In this document: piece by piece, positions 3,478 through 55,944 of the stretch
How the letters are laid out: the number at the start of each line of letters is the position of its first letter
How positions within the stretch are numbered: position 1 is the first letter of the stretch
Assembly: GCA_003194525.1 (NCBI GenBank)
Contig: NBIV01000268.1
Location: forward strand, 46,411-110,410
DNA length: 64,000 nt
Reading direction: 5' to 3'
Origin: Gracilariopsis chorda
Taxonomy: Eukaryota; Rhodophyta; Florideophyceae; Gracilariales; Gracilariaceae
Made by a program: the position numbers and the translations under genes
The notes under the pieces: generated by a model
Told to the model about the DNA's origin: nothing
Seen by the model: only the letters and a program-made list of their open reading frames with translations
The model's database searches: none

Positions 3478-3482
3478 GGAGA
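3478..3482 (+). repeat. Left target-site duplication of gypsy-1 (GGAGA)
   Basis: GGAGA directly precedes the TG of the gypsy-1 LTR and recurs at 15170-15174 directly after its CA. The five-base length is normal for Ty3/gypsy integration. Confidence 0.95.
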
Positions 3483-4307
3483 TGAAGTGCAACGCCTTAA
3501 GGGAGGGATTCTTGGTACTTGATCGTTTTCCCGATATTATCGGTTGTGTAGTGTGTATATGAACTACGCCCCACAATGGTGGGTATGGACACCTGGGACA
3601 CGGTTTTGGGTCAATTGGCGGTTGGCCACAGTAGTGGATGTTGCCACGAAATGTGGAGTATTTTAGTTAGTATTATTTATTATTTTCACACCCATTTATG
3701 GGAAGCTAGTACTTAATGCGACGACGCACTGCCGTCGCACCAGTAAACCTTCCCCAACAAGGGACCCGAACCTGGGGAATTGGCTCTAGTTGTTACCGCT
3801 TGCGCGCGTGCTCTACTCCTCCTTGGAGGGAAACGCCGTGAACCACGGGACATCTAACCCCCTTGCACATCTAAAGGGACCCATCACTGGGAGTATAATT
3901 GTTCCAATTGCATTGGTGTTTCGCCCTGTATAGGGATATTGTTACTGGCATCGCCGTTCGTCCCCGTCGCTCTCGCGACTCACTTCGCCCTCTCTTCCTC
4001 CTCTTCGCCCTTCCTTTTTCCCCTTTTTAGGGTAGCACCTCCCGCTATCCGCGGCCCTCGTGTGCGCATCCGCTCACACACCCCCACTTACGTGGAAACA
4101 TACCTCTCCTGAAGATCACACCCCGCTCACGCGGATACCGATTCTTCGCCTTCACCTCCATGCGCAAGTCGCGACAGGTGTCCCTGGTCTTACAAACCGG
4201 CTTCGCCGTGACAACTCTGGGAGGGCTCTACCTACCTGGGTTCACCTCGTGAGAAGAAGATCCCGAACGTCTTTCGGTGTTTTTCCCCTTTGGGGCATTG
4301 CACCACA
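3483..4307 (+). repeat. 5' LTR of gypsy-1
   Basis: It starts TGAAGTGCAAC and ends GCATTGCACCACA, so the termini are imperfectly inverted (TG...CA). It is 825 bp and matches 14346-15169 at about 98%. The reverse complement of a related copy stands alone at 62045-62869. The LTR contains several short perfect inverted repeats, for example CCGTG/CACGG and GTCGC/GCGAC pairs. No promoter element could be fixed with confidence. Confidence 0.97.
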
Positions 4308-4310
4308 AAG

Positions 4311-4330
4311 TGGTCTCTCGACTTAGAATC
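4311..4330 (+). other. Probable primer binding site of gypsy-1
   Basis: TGGTCTCTCGACTTAGAATC begins three bases after the 5' LTR. It starts with TGG, complementary to a tRNA CCA end. Its reverse complement resembles a tRNA 3' end through the acceptor stem into the T arm. I cannot name the tRNA. The corresponding site in gypsy-2 starts with the same TGGTCTC but then differs. Confidence 0.65.
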
Positions 4331-4411
4331 GGTTTTTGTTTTCCCTCTTACGAAGTTTGTTTTTATTTACCGGAAGTTCCGTGATCGTTCCTGTCGTAAC
4401 GGTATTCTCCC

Positions 4412-6585: not shown

Positions 6586-6602
6586 CTGAGGGAGTCTCCC
6601 CT

Positions 6603-7301: not shown

Positions 7302-7349
7302 GTAGATTCCCGTCAACACGGTCTTCAGGTTATACAACCCCTCGCCTCG

Positions 7350-8642
7350 TTGTACGAGAAATCCCAGCTGGCGCTGGCTAATGGAATTGTCTCCATTTAC
7401 CCGGATGTTCCTTTCCGGATATTGGTTGCCAACCTTGGCAAACACCCCCAGTATCTGGTAAAATACCAAGTAATTGGGAGTGTAACCCCCCATCCTATGG
7501 GAATGCTGCCAACGAAGATGACAGCCGCCGATGTACTCGGAGTTACCACCTCTTCTGAGGAGTTCGCCCCGCCGTCCGAAGACGTCAAGTCTAAGGAGGG
7601 GGAGGAAACCGCTACTTCAGCGTCGAACATACCGAGTAACTCGGAATTGCGAACCACACCTGTTCCACAGGACAATGCTCCATCGAGCAACGACCGGATT
7701 GATCCGGAAAAGGCACTTGAAGCGCTGGACTTCAGCCACGTGCCAGAGTCGCACCGCGAAAAACTCCGTACCATGTTACGGGAATTCACCACAATGTGGG
7801 ATGGCTCGCTTGGCGAGATTAACGCAAGGGTACACCGGATCGATTTGATCCCCGGTGCGCGACCGGTTGCAAAACCCCCTTACAGGGCAGGTCCGAAAGC
7901 TCAGGAAGAGGAGCAGTCCCAAGTGGAAAAGATGCTCCGCGCAGGTGTGATTGAGCCAGCTCAATCAGCCTGGGCATCCCCAGTTGTACTGGCTTTGAAG
8001 GCCGACGGAACCTGGAGGTTCTGTGTCGACTACCGCCCGCTCAATGCCGTGACTGTTAGGGACACGTACCCTATCCCTCGTATGGACGAGTGTATTGACT
8101 ACCTTGGAGATGCCACCGTGTTCACGGCCCTCGATGCCAATTGGGGATATTGGCAAGTACCTGTCAGACAAGAGGATCGCGACAAAACCGCATTCACCTG
8201 CCACACAGGAACGTACCGCTTCAAGCGAATGCCATTTACGTTAACCAACGCCCCCGCCACCTTTCAGCGTGCAGTAGATATTCTACTCAACCGCTTTAAG
8301 TTGCGGAGTTGTCTGGTCTACCTTGATGATATTACCATCTTCTCCAACTCGTTGGACGACCATCTCACTCACGTCCGAGACGTGCTGACCGTACTCCGCG
8401 ATGCGGGAATTACCCTCAAGTTGAGGAAATGCGAGTTTTTCACAGATACTTTGAAGTATCTGGGTCACATTATCCGTCCTGGACGGTTAGCGATCGAGAA
8501 AGCTCGAGTCAAATCCCTCGTTGAAGCGAAAGAGCCCCGTACTCAAACGGAACTGCGCTCCTTTTTGAGGCTGGTCAACGTCTATCGACGGTTTATCCGG
8601 AACTTTTCGGATACCGCGGCGCCCCTGAACGCGTTGTTGTGA
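7350..8642 (+). CDS. gypsy-1 reverse transcriptase
   Basis: Ty3-type reverse transcriptase. Motifs in order are KMLRAGVIEPAQSAWASPVV, WRFCVDYRPLNAVT, FTALDANWGYWQVPV (first catalytic Asp), FKRMPFTLTNAPATFQRA and LVYLDDITIFS, with catalytic YLDD at 8319-8330. The thumb follows (LKYLGHIIRPGRLAI) and then YRRFIRNFSDTAAPLNALL. A TGA at 8640-8642 interrupts the frame exactly where gypsy-2 has a sense codon; RNase H continues in the same frame. The catalytic residues are intact. The N-terminal 110 residues, before the palm, are Ser/Pro/Glu-rich. Confidence 0.95.
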   Translation: MYEKSQLALANGIVSIYPDVPFRILVANLGKHPQYLVKYQVIGSVTPHPMGMLPTKMTAADVLGVTTSSEEFAPPSEDVKSKEGEETATSASNIPSNSELRTTPVPQDNAPSSNDRIDPEKALEALDFSHVPESHREKLRTMLREFTTMWDGSLGEINARVHRIDLIPGARPVAKPPYRAGPKAQEEEQSQVEKMLRAGVIEPAQSAWASPVVLALKADGTWRFCVDYRPLNAVTVRDTYPIPRMDECIDYLGDATVFTALDANWGYWQVPVRQEDRDKTAFTCHTGTYRFKRMPFTLTNAPATFQRAVDILLNRFKLRSCLVYLDDITIFSNSLDDHLTHVRDVLTVLRDAGITLKLRKCEFFTDTLKYLGHIIRPGRLAIEKARVKSLVEAKEPRTQTELRSFLRLVNVYRRFIRNFSDTAAPLNALL

Positions 8643-9554
8643 AAAGGGAACCCCCCAAAACTAGGAACCTTTACGCCCGAGCAATCGGAAGCTTCTAACT
8701 CCTTGAAGGAGGCTGTCACATCAGCACCAATCCTACATCTCCCAAAACTTGGGCTGCCATACTCCGTAGATACGGACTCGAGCGACTACCAAGTCGGGTG
8801 TGCTCTTTTTCAAACCACCCCCGAGGGGGAACGACATCCAATTGGTTATTGGTCGCGCTCGCCCAATGTTCATGAGCGGAACTACTCCGTATCGGAGAAA
8901 GAGTGCCTCGCCGTCGTATGGGCGATGACCACTCTGCGCCCCTACCTTGTGGAAGTTCACTTTACCGTGTACACGGGTCATTCCTCATTGAGGTGGTTAT
9001 TGAATATCTCCGACCCGTCGGTACGCCTCATGCGCTGGAGACTCCGCCTCGCGGAATATGACTTTCAAGTCATTTATAAAAAGGGAGCGCAGAACACCCA
9101 AGCCGACGCCCTGTCGCGGTTACCCACAAGTGGGGAAGCACTCCCAACGGAGGATGATGAAGTCCCATGTTTCATGGCCATAGATCCAGATGATCCGGAA
9201 TGTGCCGTCAAGGCTGGGCCAGAAAACTGGGACGAGGATGCTGACTTTGACAAACTACTCGCATCGCGAGATGAATCTGAGAACCCGTTACCGGGAAACT
9301 TTGTACCGGTATCACCGGAAGAAATGATCCGAGAACAATTCGGCGACCCATTCTGTACGAGGATTCGTGCCTGTTCTAACGGTGGTGAAGATCTCCCTTT
9401 CGGGGTAAACGACAAAGGCTACCTCGTAAAGAAGGTCGAAGCCCGCCCACAGATTGTGATACCTCATTCCCTGCAGTCGTGCAGTCGCGGGTGTTACATC
9501 TATCACACTATATCCCCATTGGAGGTCACCCAGGTGGGAGGAAACTCTACCTAA
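8643..9554 (+). CDS. gypsy-1 RNase H and linker
   Basis: This continues the RT frame after the TGA at 8640. Ty3-type RNase H motifs are YSVDTDSSDYQVGCALFQ (Asp), SVSEKECLAVVWAMTTLRPYL (Glu), VYTGHSSLRWLL, where the usual catalytic TD is TG, and NTQADALSR (Asp). The change of YTDH to YTGH would remove one metal ligand. RNase H degrades the RNA of the RNA-DNA hybrid. The C-terminal part is the acidic linker leading to the integrase zinc finger. A frameshift around 9480-9550 moves the integrase to another frame. Confidence 0.9.
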   Translation, partial: KGNPPKLGTFTPEQSEASNSLKEAVTSAPILHLPKLGLPYSVDTDSSDYQVGCALFQTTPEGERHPIGYWSRSPNVHERNYSVSEKECLAVVWAMTTLRPYLVEVHFTVYTGHSSLRWLLNISDPSVRLMRWRLRLAEYDFQVIYKKGAQNTQADALSRLPTSGEALPTEDDEVPCFMAIDPDDPECAVKAGPENWDEDADFDKLLASRDESENPLPGNFVPVSPEEMIREQFGDPFCTRIRACSNGGEDLPFGVNDKGYLVKKVEARPQIVIPHSLQSCSRGCYIYHTISPLEVTQVGGNST

Positions 9555-10228
9555 CCCTGCGAAGGGATTTCTATTGGCCCGCCATGGCGGTGGATTGCTA
9601 CGCAACCGTGCGGTTTTGTAGCGAATGCGCGAAGAATCGCGTCAAGCTCCACAAACATGCGAAGAAGATGAAACTATTCCCCGCAAGGGCGCCGCTCGAG
9701 TTTATCGCGATCGATATTCTCGGACCACTGCTCACCACGAAACGTGGAAACAAGTTTCTACTTGTCATTACCGACCGCTTTTCTAAGCTGGTACGGACTG
9801 TCCCTCTTCGGAGGATAATCGCTCTCACGGTGGCCCAGGCTCTGGTGACGCACTGGATTTTCGTCTACGGTCCCCCTGTGGAGGTGCTCTCCGATAACGG
9901 GAAACAGTTCGTGAGCAAGTTCTTCCAGGATGTTTGTCGCATCCTGGATGTCAAGAACTTGTTCACGACTACCTACCACCCCCAGTGTAATGGGCAAGTT
10001 GAACGGTTTAACCGGACGTTACTCGCGGCGTTACGTTCCTACGTCGCAGACCACCCAAAGAACTGGGACATGTACGCTGATGCGGTAACCTACGCGTACA
10101 ATACGCAGGTACACCGGACTACCGTAGTTTCGCCATTCGAGTTGGTTCTATCTAAAACACCCTTGCCTGTGGCGCTGGAACCCCAAGCTACCTTGGACAA
10201 TTTCCCATCAGTGGGTATCTACCGGTAG
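9479..10228 (+). CDS. gypsy-1 integrase, zinc-binding and catalytic core
   Basis: The HHCC zinc-binding module is visible (HLSHYIPIGGHPGGRKLYL ... FCSECAKNR). The core has IAIDILGPL (first Asp), SDNGKQFVSKFF (second Asp) and HPQCNGQVERFNRTL (Glu), so the DDE triad is complete. It joins the cDNA to chromosomal DNA; the GGAGA duplication is the scar of such an event. A TAG at 10226-10228 interrupts the frame, which then continues with the C-terminal domain. The start shown is only where this frame opens after the frameshift. Confidence 0.94.
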   Translation: MQSRVLHLSHYIPIGGHPGGRKLYLTLRRDFYWPAMAVDCYATVRFCSECAKNRVKLHKHAKKMKLFPARAPLEFIAIDILGPLLTTKRGNKFLLVITDRFSKLVRTVPLRRIIALTVAQALVTHWIFVYGPPVEVLSDNGKQFVSKFFQDVCRILDVKNLFTTTYHPQCNGQVERFNRTLLAALRSYVADHPKNWDMYADAVTYAYNTQVHRTTVVSPFELVLSKTPLPVALEPQATLDNFPSVGIYR

Positions 10229-11638
10229 CAATGGAAGCAATGGCTTTCCAAGCTGGTCCTCGCTGCGCGGAAGTCTATGGCACGGGCCCAAGCCGCTTAC
10301 AAGCGGGATTTTGATGCTCGCTTGCGAGGGAAACCGTCCCCAATTCGGGCGAATAACTACGTCTTCATCAGGAAGGAGTACTACGACCCGGAACAGGAGA
10401 AGCGCCATAAACTCTCGCCTGTGGTGGATGGACCATTCACGGCCATCTCTGTAAACACCGACACTGTCGTGGTAGAGATGGGCGACACGCACGAACGGAT
10501 TTCCCGTGATCGTGTTGTCCTTGCCCCTCCTCCCTCGTCAGAGGTAGTCATGGATCCAGGCAACCCCGTTTCTACGGGCTCTCCAACAACGGAATCATCC
10601 GGGAGTACTAGGCCTACGGTACTAACACACCCCAGCCGGGGACTCTCAGACCTACCGACCCTGTCGGACTCACCGGCTAAGCCGGGTAATTCGGGCTTCT
10701 CAGCGCCCGCCCCTACCACGCCCGCCCCACTGGCGCGCATTTATACCCGCCAAGCGGGGAATGTTATCCCTTATCCCGCCGCTCCGTCTAAGGAGGGGGA
10801 GGAGAACACTCGTTTTCGAGTAACGATATCGCCGTCGCAACGGGAAACACACCGTACCATACGGAACACTGACCGTGGAGCACGGAGTATGTCACGCGAC
10901 ACTCATCCCCCGTTCCCGGGCATTGTTGTGCAACAGGAACCAGAAGCGCAGGTCCCGCAAAAGCGGCAAAAACACCGTTTGTCACGGGAAAACGAGAAGC
11001 CTCCCTCCAATACCGCAGCAGCGGAAATGAAATCGCGCGATCCATCCCCGAAGGCATCGCTACAAACGCGGGAAATATACCGTGCTACACGGGAAGTTGA
11101 AGCGCAACTACCGCACACCCCTGTCAGGGAAGGATCCCCGATAAGGGAGTATGGTGACGATTGCCCCCAATCCCCTGGGCAGAGCGATGCATCGAAGCCG
11201 CCATTGGCGGAAGCCCCCGCGGAAGCGGTTCAATCAGGTCCAGCAGACCCGCGCACCGCGGAAAAGAGGCGCCCAGATACGCCAGCCTCACAGGGAAATA
11301 CCCACACCCCTCTTGGGGAAAAAGGCAGCCAAGCCGCAGTCGAAGCTTCAGGCCCTGGCTCGCAAGCACCGGAAACCCCTCCCGTCGTTGACAGAATCGA
11401 CGCCCCCGCTCCGGGGAATAATTTGCGCCAACCCCCGCAACGCTGCGGCGAAGAACGGAGGAACTCGGGAATAACGCGCGCCATCGCACGCTCGAAACTG
11501 GTCGTACCGGACGCTGCTCCTCCTCATGGAGATGGTGCACCGCGCTTAGCGGCAATTCCACTGAAAAAGGTGTCATCGGCACCTGCCCGGCACCCCCCAA
11601 TTGGAATTTTGACTAAAATACCGGTGTACCGGAGTTAG
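10229..11638 (+). CDS. gypsy-1 integrase C-terminal domain and long low-complexity linker
   Basis: The same frame as the integrase core continues after the TAG. The first ~90 residues contain QAAYKRDFDARLRGK, VFIRKEYYD and LSPVVDGPFTAISVN, a GPY/F-type module usual at the end of Ty3 integrases. About 350 residues of Pro/Ser/Thr/Arg-rich low-complexity protein follow. The DNA under this linker is packed with short perfect inverted repeats, for example CCCGC/GCGGG at 10746-10758 and ACTCG/CGAGT at 10808-10821. The linker separates the integrase from the chromodomain by about 1.6 kb, unusually far for a chromovirus. A TAG closes the frame at 11636. Confidence 0.8.
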   Translation, partial: QWKQWLSKLVLAARKSMARAQAAYKRDFDARLRGKPSPIRANNYVFIRKEYYDPEQEKRHKLSPVVDGPFTAISVNTDTVVVEMGDTHERISRDRVVLAPPPSSEVVMDPGNPVSTGSPTTESSGSTRPTVLTHPSRGLSDLPTLSDSPAKPGNSGFSAPAPTTPAPLARIYTRQAGNVIPYPAAPSKEGEENTRFRVTISPSQRETHRTIRNTDRGARSMSRDTHPPFPGIVVQQEPEAQVPQKRQKHRLSRENEKPPSNTAAAEMKSRDPSPKASLQTREIYRATREVEAQLPHTPVREGSPIREYGDDCPQSPGQSDASKPPLAEAPAEAVQSGPADPRTAEKRRPDTPASQGNTHTPLGEKGSQAAVEASGPGSQAPETPPVVDRIDAPAPGNNLRQPPQRCGEERRNSGITRAIARSKLVVPDAAPPHGDGAPRLAAIPLKKVSSAPARHPPIGILTKIPVYRS

Positions 11639-11921
11639 CCCCAGGAAACCCGTCAGTAACCGAGGACATCACGGCGTCGCCGGAACGTATGGTGCAGAGC
11701 GCTCGTGCACCTGGCAGGGAGGTGGAACGCTTACCAATCACCGTGTCGCACGGGACCCCGCAGGGGATGTCGCAAACGCCGTTCCCCATGCGCGGCAAGA
11801 ACCCTGCAAGCTTGCGGTTCGCGAAGAAGACCGCACTCGAGGAGTTCAAGTCCCCCGCCGACTGGCGGTTCGCCCGGCCTACCGTGAACACGGGAGCAAC
11901 GGCGCCCCTCTGGGGAATGAC

Positions 11922-12317
11922 TTGCCGGTGAAAACCGTGACGCCACACACCCTCTTGAGGGATATTTTCCCGCATGAGCAGCGGCCACTAGGACAGCGCA
12001 CGGCAACGCCGGAGACATCGCCGACAACCCGGATAGGGGGTAATATACTGCACAGCGGACAACCCTCGCAAGGGAATACAACCACCACCTGGCACGGCCG
12101 GCAGGTCTACGAACGAGAGTTCGTAGTAGAGCGACTTGTCGGACACACCTGGGACTAGGATGGTATTCTACAATACCGCGTCCGCTGGTACTGGTATGAC
12201 CCCAGTGGGGATACGTGGGAGCCAATTGAACACCTCCCACGATCGCAGGTCGTGCGATACCACCGTCAAACGGGAACTGTAGCCACAGCCAAGCTGGCTA
12301 ATGCCCGAGTAGGGTAA
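11922..12317 (+). pseudogene. gypsy-1 chromodomain, with one nonsense codon
   Basis: The frame ends in a chromodomain: YEREFVVERLVGHTW, then TAG at 12156-12158, then DGILQYRVRWYWYDPSGD, TWEPIEHLP and QVVRYHRQ, closing with TAA at 12315-12317. FVVE, the aromatic RWYWY and TWEP match the chromodomain signature; chromodomains bind methylated histone tails and steer chromovirus integration into heterochromatin. The single TAG lies inside the domain. The upstream boundary is uncertain, because frame changes occur between 11638 and 11922. The chromodomain makes gypsy-1 a chromovirus. Confidence 0.85.
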
Positions 12318-12650
12318 CGTTGCCGCGCGAGCGGAGGGCAGGAAGAAGTGATAGCAAGGGAAAGTCCGTCCAAGACGGGGAAGTCTAATTGGAAATCACC
12401 GTCCGAGACGGTAAAGTTTACCTAGTGGAGCAGCAAGCTCCATACTACACTGCACTAACTGGCATAGCCAGGGAAAGGAGAACCAGGAAACTGGACTAGA
12501 GGTTTCACTCACCCCCATCGTCCGGGGCGTAACCACCAGCGAGGCGGTAGGCCAACGCGTCCGCCATGGTGGTGACATCCCCCGATACCTCGGCAGCGCT
12601 CAGACCGCCACCCCGGAGAAAACGTACAATGATCTCGTTTTCATTCGCCG
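12318..12650. other. Spacer between chromodomain and antisense gene
   Basis: No open frame with recognisable content. It holds several perfect short inverted repeats, including CCGTC/GACGG at 12366-12378 and ACCGTC/GACGGT at 12398-12412. The two converging genes of gypsy-1, sense pol and the antisense gene, end on either side of it, so it would hold the 3' ends of both transcripts. Confidence 0.6.
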
Positions 12651-14290
12651 TCACCCCGCTGGGATAGAAGGTCCGGCACTTGCCGCCGAAGGGTCAGCAG
12701 CCGGCTCGGCCGGAGATACACTCTCTGGGAAAGCTTCGGCTCTAGCGCCGGTTTCCTCTACGTCCATCTCCCCGGGTTCTTCCGGTTCGTTATCGACCAT
12801 TGGGTCATCCCCGCCGTATGCACGGTAGTAGTCGTCAGAATCGACGTACCCCACCGGGTGATCTTCCGGCACATGCCGGGGCGTATCGCGAAGCTCGCGC
12901 GCCTCCTCGGAGGAAATTTCCCGGAACTCCCAGGGGTCGAAGTAGATAAAATACCCCGCAAGGGCGGTGTTTCTACCAAGTCCGGACCACTGGTGTTACC
13001 GCTGCCGCCATCCAGACGACCGCTTTGCTCCAGCGGGACCTCACTCCAGCTGACGCTGTCGATGTACCCAAGTAATTGGAGGACCTCTTCATTGTTGGCC
13101 TGGCCCCCAAGGGGGATGGGAAGATCCAAATTGCGGATCGCCGCCCGCACACGCGGTGGAAGGAACCAGAGACGAAACTGGTCGTACGCCTCGTTGAGGA
13201 TATAAGCCGCAGCGCGGGCCGCCCACTCCGTAACCACTACGGACCACAACCCCGACCGGGGATCCTGCATGAGCAGCGAACCGAAGTACGTAAATACCGG
13301 CGGGAGGTCTATGTAGCACCCCCGGCAGGCTTCATGGAAGCGCCACCACTCGGGGAGTGCTACATACCCACCTAGTCGGTGAGGCGGCGCAATCTGCTCT
13401 ATCTCCACGTTCTGATATGGGATGAAATACCGGAATCGGGATTGCCAACGCCGCTCATAGCGGACGACGTTTTTGAGAAAGTTGGACCGGTATTGCCGGG
13501 GAAGATACCTGAACTCCGCCCCAATAATCGGTCGCTTCCAACAAAGGGCTTCTTGCCGCGCTGCGGGGAAATTCCTCCAAGCGAGAGTCTCGAGGCGGAA
13601 CAGGTTGTCGCCGTATCCGATCTCCCCGCGAGTGCGGAAGTGACTAACGTCGAAGCCAAACTCCGGTGGGACCGGTACATCGAATGGAGCCCGGCTCTGC
13701 CGTTGGTATGCCATGCGCGTCAACGCGGTCTGCGCCACAGCGACGGTCTCGCCCGAATTTCTTCGGAGGTGGTGACGCGGAATTGCAATCCGGTGACTCC
13801 AATCCCACGATGTGGTGACTGCTCTGGGCAGATCCCCCGGAAGGGTGTCTGAGCCATCCGCATAAGTGGTGACCAATCCCTCATTGAGGACAGCGACCGG
13901 GTGAAACCACGGGGCAAGGCGCAGGCGCGACGCGTGATTCCGATTCATCGGGTTGAGCCCCACCAGGGTGTTGTAGGTTGGCCAGTTGAACGACGGAGCG
14001 GGTCCAGAGGACCCCACCGAAGGTGGTAGTGCGAAGGGATGGTCGGCTGCAGCAGCCATACTCCCCGGTTGTACCGCATGTCGATCGCCCTGAGGCAGGG
14101 GAACTGACCGGAAACCAGTGGTGTATCGCCCGAGAGGCCTCGGAGGTTGGCTGTGGTTATTGATGTAGTTGTCGTTGTTCATTTCTCTCTTTTTGGGGGT
14201 GGCTGTTGTTGTTGTTTGTTCGCTCGATGACTCTGGTGCACAGGGATTTACCGGAGAACCGGAGACAGAGCACGCGCTTTTATCACCCAT
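12651..14290 (-). CDS. Antisense gene of gypsy-1, unknown conserved protein (one frameshift)
   Basis: An ATG at 14290 opens a 510-codon frame on the strand opposite gag-pol, starting 55 bp from the 3' LTR. The N-terminus is Ser/Thr/Asn-rich, followed by a ~400-residue Trp/Tyr/Arg-rich domain of unknown fold. Motifs are RFRYFIPYQN, ALPEWWRFHEA, LPPVFTYFGSLLMQDPRSG, LWSVVVTEWA and WFLPPRVRAAIRNLDLP. A frameshift near 12970 moves the C-terminus into the frame reading AGYFIYFDPWEFREISSEEA, then PVGYVDSDDYYRAYGG and an acidic, Ala/Pro-rich tail ending at 12651. The same motifs in the same order occur in gypsy-2 (28595-29637) and at 43527-45439, so this is a real protein gene. No signal peptide, membrane segment, zinc finger or known enzyme motif is seen. 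A second in-frame Met (MNNDNYINN) about 35 codons in is an alternative start. Function is unknown. Confidence 0.85.
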
Positions 14291-14333
14291 TTTCGTTTGG
14301 GAATCCTCCGCGTCCGCGGTAGTTTTCCCGTCT

Positions 14334-14343
14334 TAGGGGGGGA
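14334..14343 (+). other. Polypurine tract of gypsy-1
   Basis: AGGGGGGGAT-type purine run two bases before the TG of the 3' LTR, in the position where plus-strand DNA synthesis is primed in LTR retrotransposons. Confidence 0.8.
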
Positions 14344-14345
14344 TA

Positions 14346-15169
14346 TGAAGTGCAACGCCCTCAGGGAGGGATTCCTGGTACTTGATCGTTTTCCCGATCT
14401 TATCGGTTGTGTAGTGTGTATATGAACTACGCCCCACAATGGTGGGTATGGACACGTGGGACACGGTTTTGGGTCAATTGGCGGTTGGCCACAGTAGTGG
14501 ATGTTGCCACGAAATGTGGAGTATTTTAGTTAGTATTATTTATTATTTTCACACCCATTTCTGGGAAGCTAGTACTTAGTGCGACGGCGCACTGCCGTCG
14601 CACCAGTAAACCTTCCCCAACAAGGAACCCGAACCTGGGGAATTGGCTCTAGTTGTTACCGCTTGCGCGCGTGCTCTACTCCTCCTTGGAGGGAAACGCC
14701 GTGAACCACGGGACACCTAACCCCCTTGCACATCTAAAGGGACCCATCACTGGGAGTATAATTGTTCCAATTGCATTGGTGTTTCGCCCTGTATAGGGAT
14801 ATTGTTACTGGCATCGCCGTTCGTCCCCGTCGCTCTCGCGACTCACTTCGCCCTCTCTTCCTCCTCTTCGCCCTTCCTTTTTCCCCTTTTTAGGGTAGCA
14901 CCTCCCGCTATCCGCGGCCCTCGTGTGCGCATCCGCTCACACACCCCCACTTACGTGGAAACATACCTCTACTGAGGATCACACCCCGCTCACGCGGATA
15001 CCGATTCTTCGCCTTCACCTCCATGCGCAAGTCGCGACAGGTGTCCCTGGTCTTACAAACCGGCTTCGCCGTGACACCTCTGGGAGGGCTCTACCCAACT
15101 GGGTTCACCTCGTGAGAGGAAGATCCCGAACGTCTTTCGGTGTTTTTCCCTTTGGGGCATTGCACCACA
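14346..15169 (+). repeat. 3' LTR of gypsy-1
   Basis: 824 bp, TGAAGTGCAAC...TTGCACCACA, about 98% identical to 3483-4307. A strong inverted repeat, GCGACGGC/GCCGTCGC, lies at 14581-14588 and 14594-14601; its partner in the 5' LTR has one arm mutated. Any promoter for the antisense gene would have to lie in or near this LTR, reading leftwards. Confidence 0.97.
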
Positions 15170-15174
15170 GGAGA
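15170..15174 (+). repeat. Right target-site duplication of gypsy-1 (GGAGA)
   Basis: GGAGA directly after the terminal CA of the 3' LTR, identical to 3478-3482. Copia-2 RT coding resumes here on the - strand. Confidence 0.95.
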
Positions 15175-15652
15175 AGCCACAAGGTGCTGCCATCCTTCTT
15201 AATGTAGAAAAAACAAGGGTCAGAAAGGCATTGCTGAAATCCCAATGCCAGTAATCTCTGCGTGAACAATTGACTCCAGATCGAGTTGGACTGTTTGAGA
15301 CCGTATATAGATCGGTTAGCTTGAGGACTTCGTGCTCTGCCAGGCCTATATCTAATCCAGATGGTGGAGCCATATAGACTGGGTTTGTATCATCGATAGG
15401 CCCATTCTGGAAAGCACACTTGACGTCCAGTTGGTGTATATCAAAGTTGTACACACATGCTAGCGCAAGGGCGATTCGGACTGTGGAAAAGTCAACGACA
15501 GGTGAGTATATGTTTTCCACATGGCCCTGTTGGCATCCCTTGGCAACCAGCCGTGCTTTCTACCTTGATACTGTACCATCATCGTTCAACTTTGTCGCAA
15601 AGACGAGTTGAGATGCCAGGACTTGAGAACTCGGTGGCCTCTGTACCACATC
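15175..15652 (-). pseudogene. copia-2 RT, N-terminal part
   Basis: Read on -, this has ENIYSPVVDFSTVRIALALA and IHQLDVKCAFQNGPI (first RT aspartate), then YMAPPSG, the canonical copia RT start. A frameshift after ISVYMAPP/LKLTDLY moves the later part, which ends with FFYIKKDGSTLWLL immediately before the GGAGA duplication. YVDD and the remainder of RT resume at 3477. Removing gypsy-1 and one GGAGA would place these two halves directly together, which confirms the nesting. Confidence 0.88.
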
Positions 15653-16225
15653 CTATGTGTTCATAGACCTGAGGGATGCTAGTTCTTCCTTGATTGCCCC
15701 TTCCCAATGTTCCCAGTCCCAGGATTTCCTGGCATCATCGAGGTCTGCAGGTAATCTTGTTGGTTTCTGAACTAGGCTGACATGGCTGCTGTGTTGCGTA
15801 TCTGAAAAGCGTTCTGGAGGCTTTCTGCTTCGCTCGGGATAGCGTCTAATGGGATAGTGGGTAAGGAATTCATGCATGCTGGAGGTAATTGAGCCAGTTT
15901 CTACATCTTCCACATTATCGGACTCGATGCCTTCATCTGAATTTGCTTCTGCGGGTAGTTCATCAGAGCCCGTTGGGTTTCCAACTGAACCCACACGATC
16001 AACGGCGGTCTCATTAGCGCCATTATGCTCACTATCTTGCGCATCAGTGAGCACCTGGTCTTCATCTAGGCCAAGGTCTGGTGCCGGGTTGCCTCTGACC
16101 TCATCCAGGGTATTCTCTCTTCCACTTTCTCTTCCGGAGGAAAATAAAAGCCTCCCAGGGAAGACGTCTTCATTGATGGTCACATGTCTGGCAAACGTCA
16201 CTTCTCTCCGTTCAATGTCATACAC
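15653..16225 (-). CDS. copia-2 integrase-RT linker region
   Basis: Open frame of 190 residues between integrase and RT. It starts with YDIERREVTFARHVTINED, matching the copia stretch after the integrase core (typical form: RDVxFxE). Next comes an acidic Asp/Glu/Ser/Asn-rich spacer, then RRYPERSRKPPERFSDT, the proline-arginine stretch that usually precedes the RT, and WEGAIKEELASL, the RT entry helix. It is in frame with neither neighbour without a shift. Confidence 0.75.
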   Translation of the reverse strand: MYDIERREVTFARHVTINEDVFPGRLLFSSGRESGRENTLDEVRGNPAPDLGLDEDQVLTDAQDSEHNGANETAVDRVGSVGNPTGSDELPAEANSDEGIESDNVEDVETGSITSSMHEFLTHYPIRRYPERSRKPPERFSDTQHSSHVSLVQKPTRLPADLDDARKSWDWEHWEGAIKEELASLRSMNT

Positions 16226-16267
16226 TCGGTAGTTTAGACGTGGCAGGGACCTGAGTAGAACCCCACG

Positions 16268-17605
16268 TCATGCCTTCTTTTCCAGCTTCTTTCTCTTTGC
16301 AACATGTATCCAGACTTCACAGCCGAATGTCCTCAAGGACTCAAGGTTTGGGACGGTTCCTGTGAGGACTTGATGTGGTGTCATGCCATTATTGGCGTCA
16401 CAGCTGATGGTGTTCATCATCCTTGTAGCAGTGACAACAGCTTCTGTCCAGAACCTACGCGGAAGTCCAGCGTGGCGCAACATGGACCGTGCCATTTCCA
16501 TCACTGAACGATTGAACCGCTCAGCTACTCCATTTTGTTGGGGAGTATACGGGGCACTTGCTTCGCAATCTATGCCTTCAGTAGACAAGTACTTCCGGAG
16601 CGCAATGTATTCTTTTGCATTGTCGAAGTAAACCAGTTTGATTTTCTTCTCAGCCTGCCTTTCAAACTTTGCTTGGAAGCATCTGAACTGCTGTGTGAGG
16701 TCCGATCGGCTACTTAGAAGTCTAATGTCCTTGTATCTTGATCTTTTGTCGATAAAAGAGACAAAGTACTTCTTTCTTCCAATACTCAGAGTACTGAAAG
16801 GACCACAAATGTCTGAGAATATGACATCTCCGACATTACAAGAGTCATTGGCGCTTCGGCTCGGCAGAGTACGGCGGACCATTTTGCCTTCTAGACATGG
16901 CGTGCAGCGTAATCCAGACTCTGGACCCTTTGTTAGGTCTAGCCCAATTACCGCAGTACTGTTGGACATTTGCCTTATCCTACTTCTGCCAATGTGGCCA
17001 AGTCTCTCGTGCCATAACTGGCTACCCCTCGCATTCTGGGCTACGTACGCTCGTTCGCTGCTCAGGTGAGCATGGATTACATACATCCCTTCAAAGGCTT
17101 CAGCTGTTACCCTCTTATTCCCCATCTCTATCGTGCATCCCGATGTATCAAATCGGATGCGGTGTCCTATTGCAATTAGCTTTGAACACGAGATCAGGTT
17201 GCAGTCCAGTTCTTCGGCGAACAGCACACCATCAAGTGTTTGATACGCAGTACGTTCTCGTGGTTGGATCACACTCAATACAACTCGTCCTTCACTCTTA
17301 GCTTGTACACGCCTTCCATCTCCAAGGGAAATGGTCCTAGGCTGTACTGGAGTAAACGATTGCGATAGAGCATGACTCCCAACCATATGGCACGTAGCGC
17401 CTGAATCAATCAAGAAGCGATAATCTGGGTCAATAAGAGAGAGGAAAGCACGAGGAACGCTTGTGCTAATACCACCTTCTCTTTGATTTTGATTCCGTGA
17501 GCGGCAGTTGCGTTTGTAATTGCCCTTCTTTCCGCACAGGAAACAACTGCCCTTGGCTTTTGCCTTCAGGGCACGTTCGGTTTCTACGTGTTCATCGGGT
17601 GGCAC
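16268..17605 (-). CDS. copia-2 nucleocapsid end, protease and integrase
   Basis: A 445-residue open frame. Near its start the zinc knuckle CFLCGKKGNYKRNC has Asn in place of the ligand His. The protease motif is FLIDSGATCHM (catalytic DSG). The GAG-pre-integrase zinc module follows (LWHERLGHIGRSRIRQM ... CTPCLEGK), then the integrase core with FSDICGPF (Asp), YFDNAKEY (Asp) and TPQQNGVAERFNRSV (Glu). The DDE residues are complete. The order gag-protease-integrase-RT identifies Ty1/copia. The frame closes near 16268, where the linker region begins in another frame. Confidence 0.93.
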   Translation of the reverse strand: MPPDEHVETERALKAKAKGSCFLCGKKGNYKRNCRSRNQNQREGGISTSVPRAFLSLIDPDYRFLIDSGATCHMVGSHALSQSFTPVQPRTISLGDGRRVQAKSEGRVVLSVIQPRERTAYQTLDGVLFAEELDCNLISCSKLIAIGHRIRFDTSGCTIEMGNKRVTAEAFEGMYVIHAHLSSERAYVAQNARGSQLWHERLGHIGRSRIRQMSNSTAVIGLDLTKGPESGLRCTPCLEGKMVRRTLPSRSANDSCNVGDVIFSDICGPFSTLSIGRKKYFVSFIDKRSRYKDIRLLSSRSDLTQQFRCFQAKFERQAEKKIKLVYFDNAKEYIALRKYLSTEGIDCEASAPYTPQQNGVAERFNRSVMEMARSMLRHAGLPRRFWTEAVVTATRMMNTISCDANNGMTPHQVLTGTVPNLESLRTFGCEVWIHVAKRKKLEKKA

Positions 17606-18402: not shown

Positions 18403-18576
18403 TCACAGTACGTATGTCTATTGTAGTTTAACGAGCAGGGGACCACAAACCCAAGATATTATATCAATACGTAGGGTCGGACACCTCACAAGAAGTATCG
18501 GGCAAAGGTACTCACGTAACTACCTCACGTGAGTCCTAGACCCGTAGGTAATGGTATCAAGATTGCGCGTTCCTCA
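18403..18576 (-). repeat. 5' LTR of copia-2 (part shared with 3' LTR)
   Basis: On - it starts TGAGGAAC at 18576. The 174 bp match 2329-2502 at about 94%. The LTR probably extends further left, since a TATA-like TATATAAAG lies at 18365-18373 and gag only starts at 18221, but the other LTR is truncated so the end cannot be fixed. Confidence 0.8.
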
Positions 18577-19373
18577 TCATGCATTGCTGACAACCACTAA
18601 TCACAAACTTACTCATGACTGATGGGTAGTACCGACATATTTCGAAGGGCAGGTGGGGGATTGCAAACGACTGTTTATGGTCAACGAACAAGACCGTTGC
18701 GACGATGGCGTGATACGCCATCTAGAGCGCCTATCTTCCAAGACTACAGGTAGATAACATCGTCGTCCCTCTCTTGAAATTGACTTCTTTTGACACTAAG
18801 AATTATTACGTCTCCAATGGTAGACAAAAGAGGAAGCCAATGGGGGAAGAACACTTGGGCGTGAGCGTTTCAAATACTTGTACAGGTGCTCACACTACAC
18901 TGCTCTTTGAAGGAAGGAATGGCTCAGATCAGCGCAGCTATAGCTGATGATGGCGCTGTCCGACAGCTCGCTTATGTGTACTGAAACATAAGCGGTGAAC
19001 GCCTTTTAGCGAATTATGTGATCAGCGTAATGTGAACTGTAGAGGCGATGAGGTTAGCGGATCGCTAACAAGGATACTCTGGGGACAACAAGAATACAGG
19101 GTTACCACGCCTTGTTGAAAATGGCGCTCTGCCGTGGCAGCAATTCGCTTGGCCAGCTGCCCGACCAAACACTGCCCTATTGGTAGATGCCAGTATCTAG
19201 CATTGACGGGCAACAAGGACGGATTGCGTCGTGTCGCTTCTACTTCGCTGAAGAGACTTGGCAGAAGTTGCCAACGGTAAGCTACCCAAGGATGGCCAAT
19301 TCATTTAGACGCCAGCGTCCAAGACGACCCGGTTCACTTTGGACAGCTGACTGTTATCAGGTTTTCGTGTGAG
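18577..19373. other. Intergenic DNA after copia-2
   Basis: No gene, tRNA or repeat recognised. This is the flank of copia-2 and probably the upstream region of the gene at 19374. No convincing TATA box was found close to that gene. Confidence 0.5.
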
Positions 19374-27855: not shown

Positions 27856-28574
27856 TGTCGAGCAATATCCCTAGGCGGGAAAGCCTTCCAAGATATTCGC
27901 AGCCTTGCTCTCTTGTGAGGTAGGCGCAACGACAGGGCTCTCCGTACTACAAGGTGTTCGGGTGTAAAATCACGGTGGCTTCCGGCTATGCCGACGGATT
28001 TGATATCACAAATCGGGTTACCAGCTGGTCAGCATAGTGCGCATGTCCGTGTGAGCAGTGTGATAGTCCACGGAGAATCCAGAAAGGGAAAAGGCAAAAA
28101 GGGCAGAAATCAGAATCAGGAGTACAACCAGGCGGATCGTAAAGAAAGCCGAAAAGACTCGGCTGTGGGGGGTGTTGCTTATTCGCCAGCACGGCAAAAC
28201 TTAATACTAATTCGAACGGCTATCTGTTCCCACAATAGAAAGTAACCCTAGCGGTAAGAACAGTGAACATTGGGCGAGCCCACGGGATAAGACAGATCAG
28301 CGGTCTTTGGTGATACTGTGCGGGTGAGTATAACGAGATCGAATGCGATGGAACCCCAGCAGGAATTGGTCACTTTGCACAGGTAATACACTCAGAGCCA
28401 AGTCACACCTTGTCTTAAATTCACGGTGAAACGTCAAAGCCGTCCTCCCTTAAGGACTATTGGGTTGCAATAAACTAAGAATAGTACTACTGTCGTGTAA
28501 CACACTTGTAGTCCACACACTTGTGTCACTTGGCGGCACTGCCGGCCACGGCAAAACAAGACACTTGTGAATCA
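27856..28574 (-). repeat. 3' LTR of gypsy-2
   Basis: On - it starts TGATTCACAAG and ends TTGCTCGACA. It aligns along its whole length with 37363-38074. A purine-rich tract (GGAGGACA on -) adjoins it at 28575-28583. Confidence 0.9.
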
Positions 28575-28594
28575 TGTCCTCCAAGAAGATTCGG

Positions 28595-29637
28595 TTTGAG
28601 CGCAAGGCGCTTTCCCGACATGTTTATTTGATTCCACACATCAATATCGAAACCGAACGGTATCTCCCGCATTAGTTGAAAGTCGTTTCGCAGTGTTACC
28701 ACCGTGGTGGGTTCAGGTTGAGGTACCCAAGCGGTGTTTCCTGGCACTTCCTCCCTGTTTAACTTTTGTAAGTTCCCACATCATTGATGATCCCAAATCT
28801 GGTTATTGGTCGTTTATTGCCGCAGAGTGGGCTACCTGCGTAGCGGTTTTAATTCGCTGGTAAGCGTATGACAACTACCATCTTTGTTTCATACCACCGA
28901 TAGTCAGGAACATCATCAAACAGCTCGACCTTGTAGTCTCATTAGGATGCCAACAAAACGTGGATAAAGTCTTATACATCTTGGATGTGATCGAACAGGT
29001 CAACTTGGATACATTTCCATGGGAAAACCGTGGTCAGTGTCCAAGAAATGCTCGTGACAAATCTCCTGGTCGCTGCGATCCAACTGCTGGGGTCTTTGTC
29101 TATACCAACCCTTATGTGGGTGCAACGGTGTCCCGTGCTCATGCATTTGAACAAGGCAGTCTTCCGCGGACCGTACCAGCGGGAAATCCGACAGGATTCG
29201 TATTTCATGACGATTACGAGCCGTCGGTCGACTTCGATGATCGGATGAAGGATGACGAGGAAAACGAGAGCGGCGGACTATACCATGGACGGATCATGGA
29301 TTCGGTTGGTCCGAGCAACGCCGGTGCATCCAAGCAATCGGGTGCTCTCGAGGGGTGCGTTTTCGTAACTCGGATGAATGAGTCGCAACATCCAAAACCT
29401 TGGAATCCTGGTACCTCCACATATTGTAAATGTTTGACAGCTCCCGGCTCTCGCCACAGCGAAATATTCTCAGTCAACCAGTCAATCTGGTGCGGACCCT
29501 TCCTCGGGATAACGTGTACTCAGTATTCGGACCTTCACGTATCGGTGATAAATCTTGCGATTGCTTCTGGATTCAAACAAACTTTTGGTTCTTCGTACTT
29601 CTTTCTTCATGATTCTTCTGTATTCTCCACTTCATAG
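28595..29637 (+). pseudogene. Antisense gene remnant of gypsy-2 (C-terminal part)
   Basis: This lies on + while gypsy-2 is on -, between the integrase end and the 3' LTR, exactly as in gypsy-1. Matching motifs in order are YLIPHINIETERYLPH (against YFIPYQNVEIEQIAPPH), AVLPPWWVQVE (ALPEWWRFHE), LPPCLTF...DDPKSGYWS (LPPVFTY...QDPRSGLWS), EWA, FIPPIVRNIIKQLDL (FLPPRVRAAIRNLDL) and PTGFVFHDDY (PVGYVDSDDY). One frameshift lies near 28680 and one TAA at 28861-28863; otherwise the frame is open to 29637. The N-terminal two thirds of the gene are missing next to the LTR. The conservation shows selection on the antisense protein before gypsy-1 and gypsy-2 diverged. Confidence 0.82.
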
Positions 29638-31053
29638 TGTTCTTCATCATCATGACGTTTCTTCTTTACACCATTAATCCCCTATAACTGTTAATTCAGT
29701 ATTCTATTTGCTACAGTTCATAAACTTCTTGTTCCATCCGTGAGGATCTTCTTCTTCTTCTTCTCTTCTCCGCTTAGCGGTCACTTCATACCCTTTGGGG
29801 ACTGGGTATGGTTCTACCCTACTTGGGCTTTATTCACAGTTGGTGGTATGGATACCCGAGTGCTTTGGTGATATTGTAGGAATTTAGACCTAGGTAGGTG
29901 TTCGATGGGTTCCATCGTGTCCTCTTTTGGGGGGTATTCATACCAACAGATTTGGTAATAAATCACCCCTTCCGGGTCATATTCGTGACGCACGATGCGT
30001 TGGAGAACTAATTCTCGGGAATAAGTGTCCTATTTCACAGCTCTCATGACGGATTCCCGCCAAAGCGAGCCTTTCAAGGGTACCAAGGGACTCGTTTCCA
30101 ACCCTGATCGAGTTTATTCCGGTTCTCGGAGACCGGAGACTTGTAATTTACTTTCCGTAGGTCCGTCGAATCGACCGAATGGTAACTTCCATGATACCAG
30201 TAGTAGCACAAATCTGAAAGTGTGTCCAGATAGAACTAGCGTTCCAGATTACCACATCTTCAAGTGAGCTCTCAAGAGTCGTTAACCAGCGAAAAGTACC
30301 TTCTGAGATTCGGTTAGCGCCTCATAGTGTCGGGATTACCGTTTGAGGAAGATACTCATGTGCCACACTTCCTGCGCATGGAGGCGGATCGACCTGCTAC
30401 GGTGCTTGCACACTGGATCCTGATTGGATGACCGTCGCCGCCGGACTCCCACAAAGTTTCGGTGCCGTTATACGTAAACTATTGCCGATGGGTACCATGG
30501 ATTGTCGTATACACGGGTACGGTGTCCGTTACTTCTGCACCTCAGTGCTCGGTGACGTTGTAAGCGTGTTACGTCCGACTCCTTATACTGGCTGTGCGCC
30601 GTGTGATGCACGTTGCGCGTGAACTTCCCACACGCCGTGGCGCACATCTCAACGTTCTATCTCGTCAAGAGTTTCACGAAAGCCTCGTTCTTCCCAGCAA
30701 CTAGAAATTACAAGCACAAAAGCGTGGTGTACGACTGATTGGGGTCGTCGTCTTCGACAAGGTAGCCCAAGTCAGGGTCGGCTATCACCGGGCGCGGTTC
30801 GCAACTAGTCTGAAGAGCAACGCCTTGCGTTTTATCGCTACTGCAAAGTCCTGATTTCAGCAGTCGAGCCATGGGGTCGGGCCTTGATACAGTGGTGTCT
30901 TCTCTTTGAGGGCTTTGCCTAGTGGGCTTCCAATGTACTTTGCGGGGTCCCAAGTCCCCGTCTCACACTGTGCGATTAACTATTTGGTGCTCAGCAATAA
31001 TTTTCCCTGGCGACGTCAGTAAATCGACAGTGTTCGCATCTCCCTTGCCCTAT
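29638..31053. other. gypsy-2 spacer between antisense gene and integrase end
   Basis: No clear open frame. By position it should hold the chromodomain remnant on -. A faint trace, TLWES-like, reads on - near 30460-30490 but is too weak to call. The sense linker seen in gypsy-1 is probably represented, degraded, at 30708-30953. Confidence 0.5.
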
Positions 31054-31560
31054 TTAGTTGGAGCCCGGGGGGTTGGGTAGGGTGGGTGGCAGGTTGAATC
31101 GAGTGCAGTGATCCGGGATATCCGGGGACTTGTTCTGAAGACGGAGATCCGTTTCCATCGGTAAATCCGATAAACCAGGATCCGGATGCGGTAGAATCAC
31201 TGGCTGCGATGGAGAATGAACCATGAGCGGGTCGTCTGAGTCCAGATTAACCTCAGAGGTATGCCCGGTATCAGAGTCTGGGTGAGGGTGAAGAGATACA
31301 GTAACGCGGTCGCGCGAAACTTTTTCTTGGTGGTCGTTAATGTCCAAGATCACTTTTTCGTTGGCAGGAGAAACCACGGGAGAGGGTCCGTCCACGATTG
31401 GATAAAGCTTTTGACGCCTTTCATCTTCAAGATTATAATACTTCTTAAGAAGGAAAACAAAGCCATTTGTATTAACCTGTGGATCTTGCCGCCGAAATTA
31501 CACTTCTACGCAAGTTGATCGTTGTGCATAGCTTTCCGGAGAACCTGTATCATCTTCTTT
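31054..31560 (-). pseudogene. gypsy-2 integrase C-terminal module and linker start
   Basis: On -, DGPSPVVSPANEKVILDINDHQEKVSRDRV matches the gypsy-1 GPY/F region (VDGPFTAISVNTDTVVVEMG ... ISRDRVVL), followed by Pro/Ser/Asp-rich linker (PHPDPGLSDLP resembling HPSRGLSDLP). Frame breaks separate it from the core. Confidence 0.75.
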
Positions 31561-31763
31561 AAACATTCTCTCCAGATCCACCTGTGTAACCGCGTTGAAT
31601 GGTACGCCGAAAAAGTCGGTTGAGCCTCGACTGCCACTGGGGCTGGGATTGGCGACAGCATAAACTCAAAAGGTGAAAGTGACGTAAACCGATGTAAGTG
31701 GGTATTGTAGACATACGTAACTGCATCGGTATACAGGTTCCAATCCTTAGGATGATTCGCAAC

Positions 31764-32538
31764 TTAGGATCGTAACGCGTTAAGAATCGTACGATTAAAT
31801 CGTTCTACATGTCCAATACCCTGCGGGTGATATGTTTTGACGAACATATTTCGGACATTGAGAATACGGCAAACGTCTTGAAAGAACTTTGACATAACCT
31901 GGGGGCCATTGTCGAACAACAAATCGACTGGGGGACCGTAAACGAATATCCAGTGTGCGACGAAGCCTTGTGCCACCGCGGCAGCAGTTTTTCGTTTAAG
32001 CGGCACTGTTTGTACGAGTTCAGAAAACCCGCCGGTTATTATCAGCAGGTAGCGATTTCCTCGATGTTTCACAATCAACCCGATGAATATATCGATCGCC
32101 ACGAATTCCAGCGGAGTGCGAGCTAGTAGCAGCGTTAATGCCTTAGAGTATTTCCGTAGTTTTACGTGGTTCTTCGTGCATTCCATACAAGAGCGGCGAG
32201 CTGCCACAGTCAAACGCCATAGCGGGCCAGTAGAAATCTCTACGGAGAGTTAGATATAACTTCCTACCCCCTGGGTGTGCTCCGAGTTTCACATAATGAG
32301 AAAGCTGGAGAACCCGTCTCTGTAAAGTGTGGCGTACCACAATCTGTGGAGAAGAATTAACCAACCTGACAAGGTATACCTGTTCGTTCGTCGAAAAAGG
32401 TAAGTGATATCCTCCATTGAGGCGAGCGCAAATCTGCGAACATAACGGGTCGCATTGTTGCTCGCGAATCAACTCTTCAGGAGTAATAGGCTTTAAAGAG
32501 CCTTCGTTCGAGGGCACCGAAGTTTGAGAAGCTAGCAT
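31764..32538 (-). pseudogene. gypsy-2 integrase
   Basis: The zinc module (QLSHYVKLGAHPGGRKLYLT, CMECTKNH) and the core (FVAIDIFIGL, FDNGPQVMSKFF, YHPQGIGHVERFNRTIL) are recognisable; the DDE residues survive. The zinc part and core are in different frames, with a break near 32200. NGQVERF of gypsy-1 has become GIGHVERF. Confidence 0.9.
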
Positions 32539-32559
32539 ATCATCACAAATGTCCTCTGA

Positions 32560-33279
32560 CTAATCCTTGGTATTCCGTTCATCGTTCTCGACCACGAAAC
32601 ATGGCATTTCGAGATCATCGACCGGTTCTGCTTCTACAGTGGCTCCTAGGCGGGATAACGCGTTGGCTTGCGTGTGAAGTGTTCTCTCTTTGTAGAGTAC
32701 TTCGAAATCGAATTCTGAGAGTCGGAGGCGCCAACGCATGAGGCGTTCCGATGGTTTGGCAATCTTCATGAGCCAACGAAGGCAGTAATAATCCGTATTT
32801 ACCTTAAAATAGGTTCCCATAACACATGATCGAAGAGTGGCAAGCGCCCAAACAACGGCGAGACACTCTTTTACAGAAACCGAGTAGTGACGTTCGTGCG
32901 CGTTCAATGTCCGAGACAAATATCCGATTGGGGATCGTTCACCCTCTTCGGTCACTTGAAATAGTGCAAACCCGACCTGGTTACCACTGGCATCAGTATG
33001 CATTTCATAGGGTAAACCAAGACTTGGCAGCGCCAATATTGGCGAAGATGTCACGGCGTTTATGAGAGCTGTGAAGGCAGACGCTTTTGCGTTGCCAAAA
33101 GTTTCCAGTTTAACTGGTTGTCCCTTCTTTTGGAGAGCATTCAGAGGTGTCTCAAGCTCCGCAAAACTCGGCACAAACCGACGATATATGTTACAAAGTC
33201 CAGGAATTGATCGGAGTTCCGTTTGCGTAGTCGGATGTTTCGCGTTCTTTAGCAATTTAACTCTTCCCTCGTCTATCAA
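32560..33279 (-). pseudogene. gypsy-2 RNase H
   Basis: YEMHTDASGNQVGFALFQV (Asp), SVSVKECLAVVWALATL (Glu position is KE in the family motif), VNTDYYCLRWLM (Asp) and HTQANALSRL, where the final Asp of ADALSR is Asn. The ORF is uninterrupted for 239 residues. The remaining parts of pol are frameshifted on both sides. Confidence 0.9.
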
Positions 33280-34308
33280 AAGCTGTCCGGAGCGGACGGA
33301 TTATATTTCCAAGGTACTTCACCGAATTGGTACAGAACGTCCACTTCTTGAGTTTCAGCGTAATCCCTGCATCTCGCAGCACACACATGACGTTCGTCAC
33401 ATGGGTTATGTGATCATCAAAGTTGTTGCAGAACACGATTATATCGTCGAAATACACCAAGGTTGTCGATTTTAACTTGGCCAATAGATTATCTATGGCA
33501 CGTTGAAACGTAGCAGGTCCACTAGGTAACTCGTAAGGCATTCGTTTAACACGATATAGTCCTTGGTGACACAAAAACGCAGGTTTGTTGCGGTCATCCT
33601 TGCGTATAGTCACTTGCCAATAACCCCAATTGGCGTCAGGAGCCGTGAAAACCGTAGCAATACCAAGTGAGTCAATGTAATTGTCCATCCGAGGGATGGG
33701 GTAGACGTCCTTGACAATAACTGTGTTGATACGTCAGTAATCGATACAAAATCTCCACGATCCATCCTATTTTGGAACGAGCACTACTGGCGAAGCCCAA
33801 GGTGATTGAGCGGGTTCAATGACGCCAGCGCGTAACATCTTCTCGACTTAAGATTTTCATCCTCATGGGCTGTCGGTCCAGCCCAATAGAGATGCTGTGC
33901 AATTAGCCAAGTGTTCGGTAACAAATCAATACCGTGCTCCGTTACTCGTATTGTTCCAAGGGAACCGTCCCACATATTGGTAAACTCACGAACCATATCT
34001 CGTAGTTTCTCATGATGAGAGTCAGGGACATGATCCAGATCGATCTCCTCGAGTTCTTCCATAGAATTAGCCTGTTCTGAACCAGTTGGTCGCGCACAGG
34101 TTTCCGTTGTTCGTTCACCTTTGAAGTTGGGATCCGAATTACGCTCAGCGTTGTTAGAGTTGTCGTTCCCCTCCTTAGAATCTTCCACTCCCAGAATGGC
34201 AGCCAATGGAATTATCGGTGGCGGGATACTCCGCGGGTGTGGGAGAACCAACTCCAAGACCTGGTTCTTGACTAGACACTGAGTAGTTTTGCCAACGTTG
34301 GCAACCAT
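33257..34308 (-). pseudogene. gypsy-2 reverse transcriptase
   Basis: Two frames together cover RT. The N-terminal part (33784-34308) includes the linker and LDHVPDSHHEKLRDMVREFTNMWDGSLG. The palm (33257-33688) has FTAPDANWGYWQV and FQRAIDNLL. The catalytic motif is YFDD in LVYFDDIIVF. Frame breaks near 33700-33850 interrupt it. Confidence 0.92.
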
Positions 34309-34440
34309 TTCCTGTAATGGAACATCAGGGCTTATAGAAACAACTCTGTTTGCAAGTGCGAGTTAACGCTGGTCTTATAACGACGAAAGCGGTTGAACCA
34401 CATGGTATGAAATCTGTTTGGAAACAACTGTGACAAAGAC

Positions 34441-49702: not shown

Positions 49703-49732
49703 ATACCAGTGAGGAGGAGGGGACCTTTGGTG

Positions 49733-49789
49733 TTGCCATTCAACTCTTAGCGCCTCGCGAGTCGGGAGGCGCTAAGAGTTGAATGGCAA
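49733..49789. repeat. Perfect 24-bp-arm hairpin
   Basis: Arms 49733-49756 and 49766-49789 are perfect inverted repeats around a 9-nt spacer GCGAGTCGG. The identical arms recur at 56331-56387 with spacer CCGACTCTG. It lies about 590-645 bp upstream of the ATG. It could be a small MITE, a transcription end or a structured RNA. Confidence 0.85.
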
Positions 49790-55937: not shown

Positions 55938-55944
55938 TTTTATA
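55938..55944 (-). promoter_or_regulatory. TATA box of the Sel1 gene
   Basis: TATAAAA on -, about 196 bp upstream of the ATG; conserved in the duplicated copy. Confidence 0.55.

Follow-up and report, generated by a model that had tools for sequence, protein, structure and literature searches.

An antisense protein gene beside the 3' long terminal repeat of chromodomain-bearing Ty3/gypsy elements in the red alga Gracilariopsis chorda

Antisense genes located between pol and the 3' long terminal repeat (LTR) are known from retrotransposons of flowering plants. The antisense open reading frames (ORFs) named aORF-3R of Grande, RIRE2, Retand and PvRetro13 lie at this position in most copies, and their function is given as unknown (PMC7264820; PMC11963269). 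In Grande the protein is located in the nucleus and its gene has a promoter of its own (PMC7264820); the Retand ORF carries a TRP28 domain (PMC11963269). HBZ of human T-cell leukemia virus type 1 (HTLV-1) is an antisense gene of a retrovirus, and an antisense promoter in the 3' LTR is described for HTLV (PMC7264820, PMC11963269). The plant mobile domain (PF10536) is presented as an extra non-canonical domain on Gypsy elements (PMC9289625). Here we describe an antisense gene of this kind in gypsy-1, a chromodomain-bearing Ty3/gypsy element at positions 3483–15169 of a 64,000-nucleotide stretch (the window) of contig C268 in the 91.3-Mb genome of Gracilariopsis chorda.

The plus strand of gypsy-1 encodes RVT_1, RNase H, rve and Chromo domains (Pfam), the chromodomain following the integrase, an arrangement that would class the element as a chromovirus by domain content alone. 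Its LTRs are 97.8% identical over 830 aligned positions and are bordered by a 5-bp target duplication, GGAGA, at 3478–3482 and 15170–15174. The original prediction had named the antisense genes of Grande and Retand as a reported parallel, and this is borne out by the literature cited above (PMC7264820, PMC11963269): the plant and red-algal genes share their location between pol and the 3' LTR, their orientation antisense to gag-pol and their presence in most copies. The plant hosts, however, are flowering plants and Retand is described as a non-chromovirus lineage, whereas the red-algal carriers have a chromodomain. Neither Transposase_28 (PF04195), for the TRP28 of Retand, nor PF10536 is matched at E up to 1 in 17 members of the family. 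HBZ-type retroviral genes are set apart by their description, the red-algal protein having 595 amino acids, a large conserved core and no Pfam or PDB sequence match. The layout is already known from plants; what differs is the protein, the lineage of the host and the presence of a chromodomain in the carrier. Among titles and abstract openings, which largely leave subscription papers out of scope, we found no report of such an antisense gene from red algae.

Extent of the gene and selection on its product

The minus strand of gypsy-1 had been predicted to encode a protein in the interval from the chromodomain to the 3' LTR, and tblastn matches to the intact relative L002 (595 amino acids) confirm it. 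The gene does not end at 12651, as first proposed, but spans 14290 to about 12508, and the window copy carries two frameshifts, near 12970 and near 12700, instead of the single one near 12970: residues 1–446, 437–546 and 521–595 of L002 match 14290–12953, 12983–12654 and 12732–12508, respectively. Intact gypsy-1 copies elsewhere in the genome have 595 codons.

In a protein search of the genome, 58 of the 74 gypsy-1 copies scored were free of stop codons, these being the best 74 of 1912 candidates, a best-scoring list that favours intact copies. The third family, C74, for which the list likewise holds the best-scoring copies only, gave 82 matches, of which 68 lack a stop and 79 are 95–100% identical; the full query of 529 residues is covered by 63 of them, 53 stop-free. 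The antisense gene is therefore kept in most listed copies of two families (58/74 and 68/82 stop-free) and is not the product of a single transduction. The tail of pol could be read at 25 of the 30 gypsy-1 loci tried, the other 5 being unrecognised by the search words. It is open, with its chromodomain, to the edge of the fetched piece at 17 loci, cut by a stop at 7 and devoid of a chromodomain word at 1. At all 17 loci with an open pol tail the antisense gene is also stop-free. The two genes are arranged tail to tail and do not overlap.

The gypsy-1 antisense protein is under purifying selection, as the original prediction had proposed. The ratio of nonsynonymous to synonymous differences per site (pN/pS) is 0.31, well under 1, among 27 intact copies (mean pN 0.0153, pS about 0.050), namely those of 30 fetched that share the same start word, with 3 dropped; for the chromodomain ORF of 27 copies, 3 of which have a stop, it is 0.65. 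With the natural copy L012 as reference, synonymous changes make up 63 of the 103 variants present in at least two copies, where 30.2 would be expected (z 6.8), and 70 of the 207 variants seen once, where 58.8 would be expected (z 1.7). A strong excess among shared variants together with a weak one among single variants is the pattern given by a selected lineage with decaying copies. Alternative references, L020 and L009, gave the same picture (z 7.0 and 6.5), and the synonymous excess is strongest in the frame of the antisense gene itself. Between five families, whose proteins are 30–60% identical, the third codon position is the most different in 10 of 10 pairs (e.g. 0.36/0.28/0.57). The locus is almost certainly a selected accessory protein gene.

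These data bear directly on the idea that only the antisense RNA matters, as double-stranded RNA or through promoter interference, the open frame being incidental. An antisense transcript would complement the 3' portion of the element RNA, and such a role is discussed for plants (PMC7264820). This explanation is largely refuted by the codon-level constraint in the frame of the gene, by the amino-acid identity retained across divergent families and by the protein relatives found in other species. Selection acts on the protein and not on the RNA alone.

Position in the element and inheritance with the chromodomain

The window contains a second, divergent element, gypsy-2, in which protein similarity to the antisense gene had been claimed. 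We recovered this similarity by tblastn over residues 300–509 (134 bits, E 1.5e-36), and it survives the shuffled control, the maximum in 500 shuffles of the same protein being 28.9 bits. The gypsy-2 copy is a relic, since the similarity begins only at residue 276 (position 28589), directly adjoining the LTR that ends at 28587, falls into two pieces in different frames and is interrupted by stops. It lies on the strand opposite its own pol and chromodomain (29817–34362, minus strand), that is, in the antisense position expected from gypsy-1.

The conservation of this position was confirmed more widely. Among 26 loci tried, comprising gypsy-1, C42, C74 and 20 gypsy-2-type loci, P2 not being included, all 23 that show both features by tblastn matches of sufficient length carry the gene on the strand opposite the chromodomain. 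The same holds for 38 gypsy-1 rows representing 34 distinct places, so that the antisense position is constant wherever it could be checked. Some 50 nt separate the start codon from the LTR edge in gypsy-1, P2 and C42, compared with some 170 nt in C74. Distances between proteins correlate with those between chromodomains over 22 loci (Mantel rho 0.79, reached in 0 of 5000 permutations).

Independent capture, family by family, of a host gene or of a separate mobile element could be imagined for an orphan protein family, some members of which are proteins from the European Nucleotide Archive (ENA) on contigs of unseen context. The common placement in four families, on the same side, antisense and beside the 3' LTR with 50 to 170 nt between it and the start codon, and the correlation with the chromodomain across families make such repeated capture very improbable.

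The 1,060 nt that follow the antisense gene in family P2 gave no match to a chromodomain or to other parts of pol, and the chromodomain-like match in the P2 copies L041 and L042 falls outside the LTR. P2 (L039–L044) retains the antisense gene and may be non-autonomous. The 3' end of the LTR contains a block conserved across five families with otherwise differing LTRs (14969–15169 and, in other copies, L044:561–761, L048:3630–3830, L070:319–519, 27862–28062 and 37367–37567). This block may form a weak hairpin, with an uncontrolled RNAalifold energy of -7.43 kcal/mol and 9 of 35 pairs altered in both partners in one or more of the six sequences.

The protein family and its possible role

A search of 5.8 billion proteins returned 15 relatives: two from G. 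chorda, one each from Gracilaria domingensis and Agarophyton chilense, and 11 from Logan or ENA. Public records list three family members as named hypothetical proteins of the algae; P0002 is BWQ96_03215 of G. chorda, and its residues 1–491 are 100% identical to contig C30. No precomputed Pfam domain is recorded on any of the 15, and 105 pattern matches in viral contigs included no relative. The earlier statement that the protein resembles no known family held when 11 and 17 members were scanned against Pfam, two profiles against PDB sequences and 17 members against PHROGs, nothing falling below E 0.05; matches above this value differ between members and were taken as chance.

The protein opens with a low-complexity N-terminal part, followed by a core of some 355 residues; its acidic tail closes with a short conserved segment. 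In four G. chorda families the N-terminal part includes the word [TS]GFxSxPxP. The core is marked by invariant R, G, E, L and Y residues (within RTxGE, RPILRAEFR, ERRxRSR, PYQ and nearby), and the tail, present in 16 of 17 sequences, carries a net charge of -6 to -24. For hydropathy over 19 residues, 1.6 is the threshold. The maximum is 1.09 in the gypsy-1 protein and below 1.6 in 16 of 17 members, P0012 reaching 1.78 in an N-terminal stretch, which makes an envelope role unlikely. Envelope-like proteins would show a membrane-spanning segment and sense orientation, and here the gene is antisense and the hydropathy below the threshold in all members but P0012.

We consider the gene to be an accessory protein gene of a red-algal chromodomain Ty3/gypsy lineage, inherited with the element and encoding a nuclear regulator that favours it, a reading to which, taken as a whole chain, we assign a probability of roughly 45%. 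A promoter within or adjoining the 3' LTR would drive transcription of the gene in the direction of pol, and the product would be a soluble protein with the anatomy described above. Its site of action would be the nucleus, where it would work in trans on the DNA or chromatin of the element itself, most probably to raise element expression or to counter host silencing. The role of nuclear regulator is suggested by analogy with the nuclear Grande protein and its own promoter and is put forward tentatively; an effect that favours rather than restrains the element is suggested by the retention of the gene in recent families. In C74 the word TATAAATA stands between LTR and gene, 112 nt ahead of the start codon; C42 has a TATATA word at -260.

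A protein that serves the replication cycle instead of regulation, for instance in packaging, in bringing the integration complex into the nucleus or in spread from cell to cell, is a somewhat unlikely alternative. The association with pol fits any step of the cycle, and integration-complex nuclear import is raised for the antisense ORF products by the plant authors (PMC7264820). Being antisense, however, the gene is not expressed from the gag-pol RNA and needs a transcript of its own, and its product has no profile similarity to two gag-region ORFs, a third (6603–7301) lying outside the comparison. The same two ORFs were rejected, for want of a profile match, as a source of the antisense gene.

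The protein could also be a brake, that is, a negative regulator that limits the copy number of the element or cuts its sense RNA, and the convergent antisense layout agrees with this, as does the regulation of expression by antisense genes in some retroviruses, named in PMC11963269. Selfish copies should readily lose a brake, yet the gene is free of stops in most listed copies of both gypsy-1 and C74. This argument from retention is weak because the copy lists favour intact copies, and we regard a brake as improbable.

Several observations weigh against a nuclear regulator that is selected for and inherited with the element. No DNA-binding or chromatin domain was detected in the Pfam scans of members, a crude pattern found no basic cluster in the gypsy-1 protein, and the charge of the core is near neutral, -9 to +7 across members. 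The TATAAATA word occurs in one of five upstream stretches by a strict pattern with no shuffle comparison, the four without it being those of gypsy-1, P2, C42 and the truncated gypsy-2. Within 17 gypsy-2-type loci the correlation between protein and chromodomain distances drops to rho 0.27 (482 of 5000 permutations), so that the two are clearly linked from family to family but weakly within a single one. Between copies, pN/pS is 0.67 in P2 (n = 5, three with stops) and 0.79 in C42 (n = 3, two with stops), weaker constraint that we interpret as the decay of dead copies. A synonymous excess (z 4.4 to 4.8) is present in one frame of the gag-pol strand as well. A gag-pol-strand gene was rejected as the source of constraint, since this frame contains between 17 and 19 stops and its third codon positions are, by codon arithmetic, a mirror of those of the antisense gene.

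Features of the window and significance

The coordinates of the two elements are collected in Table 1.

Table 1. Parts of gypsy-1 and gypsy-2 in the window
Feature	Position	Strand	Basis
5' LTR of gypsy-1, TGAAGTGCAA...TTGCACCACA	3483..4307	+	97.8% identity to 3' LTR
Reverse transcriptase part of pol	7350..8642	+	PF00078, E 1.9e-34
RNase H part of pol	8703..9554	+	PF17917, E 1.2e-32
Integrase core of pol	9479..10228	+	PF00665, E 2.3e-12; PF17921, E 3e-11
Chromodomain, end of pol	12072..12314	+	85% identity to L002 chromodomain query; L002 ORF: PF00385, E 5.3e-11
Antisense accessory gene, broken copy	12508..14290	-	510-aa ORF at 12758-14290 and three tblastn pieces
Polypurine tract before 3' LTR	14336..14342	+	Read from sequence; ~50 nt from antisense start codon
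3' LTR of gypsy-1	14346..15169	+	LTR comparison
3' LTR of gypsy-2 (element on minus strand)	27861..28587	-	90.4% identity to 37366-38087
Antisense gene relic in gypsy-2, first ~275 residues missing	28589..29637	+	Similarity to gypsy-1 at 28589-29280; remainder matches other gypsy-2-type copies
Chromodomain of gypsy-2	29817..30023	-	49% identity over 69 residues
Pol remains of gypsy-2 (integrase, RNase H, reverse transcriptase)	31147..34362	-	tblastn with gypsy-1 pol pieces

Gypsy-1 is apparently nested in a Ty1/copia-like element, of which gag_pre-integrs, Pol_BBD and rve domains are found at 16268–17605 on the minus strand (region 15200–17605), and a 175-nt direct repeat (2329–2503 and 18403–18577) encloses gypsy-1 together with this surrounding element. 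Positions 62095–62872 of the minus strand match LTR sequence only, of the gypsy-1 family, and are perhaps a solo LTR. An inverted repeat of 818 nt (49719–50536 and 55584–56401) has arms that are 96% complementary and 5047 nt apart.

Antisense protein genes by the 3' LTR are known from flowering plants and some retroviruses, and their role in plants is open; the red algae add a second case. With 156 scored places in two families (best-scoring lists), mostly stop-free, and relatives elsewhere, the question becomes testable in a 91-Mb genome. The locus also adds a conserved orphan protein family without a match to the known domains searched (Pfam, PDB sequences, PHROGs). A bolder proposal, which we hold to be rather unlikely, is that red-algal chromodomain retrotransposons evolved their antisense gene independently of plants and that its product, with a new fold, attaches to the LTR or chromatin of the element itself and relieves host silencing. 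If true, antisense accessory genes next to the 3' LTR would be a convergent solution in distant branches of life.
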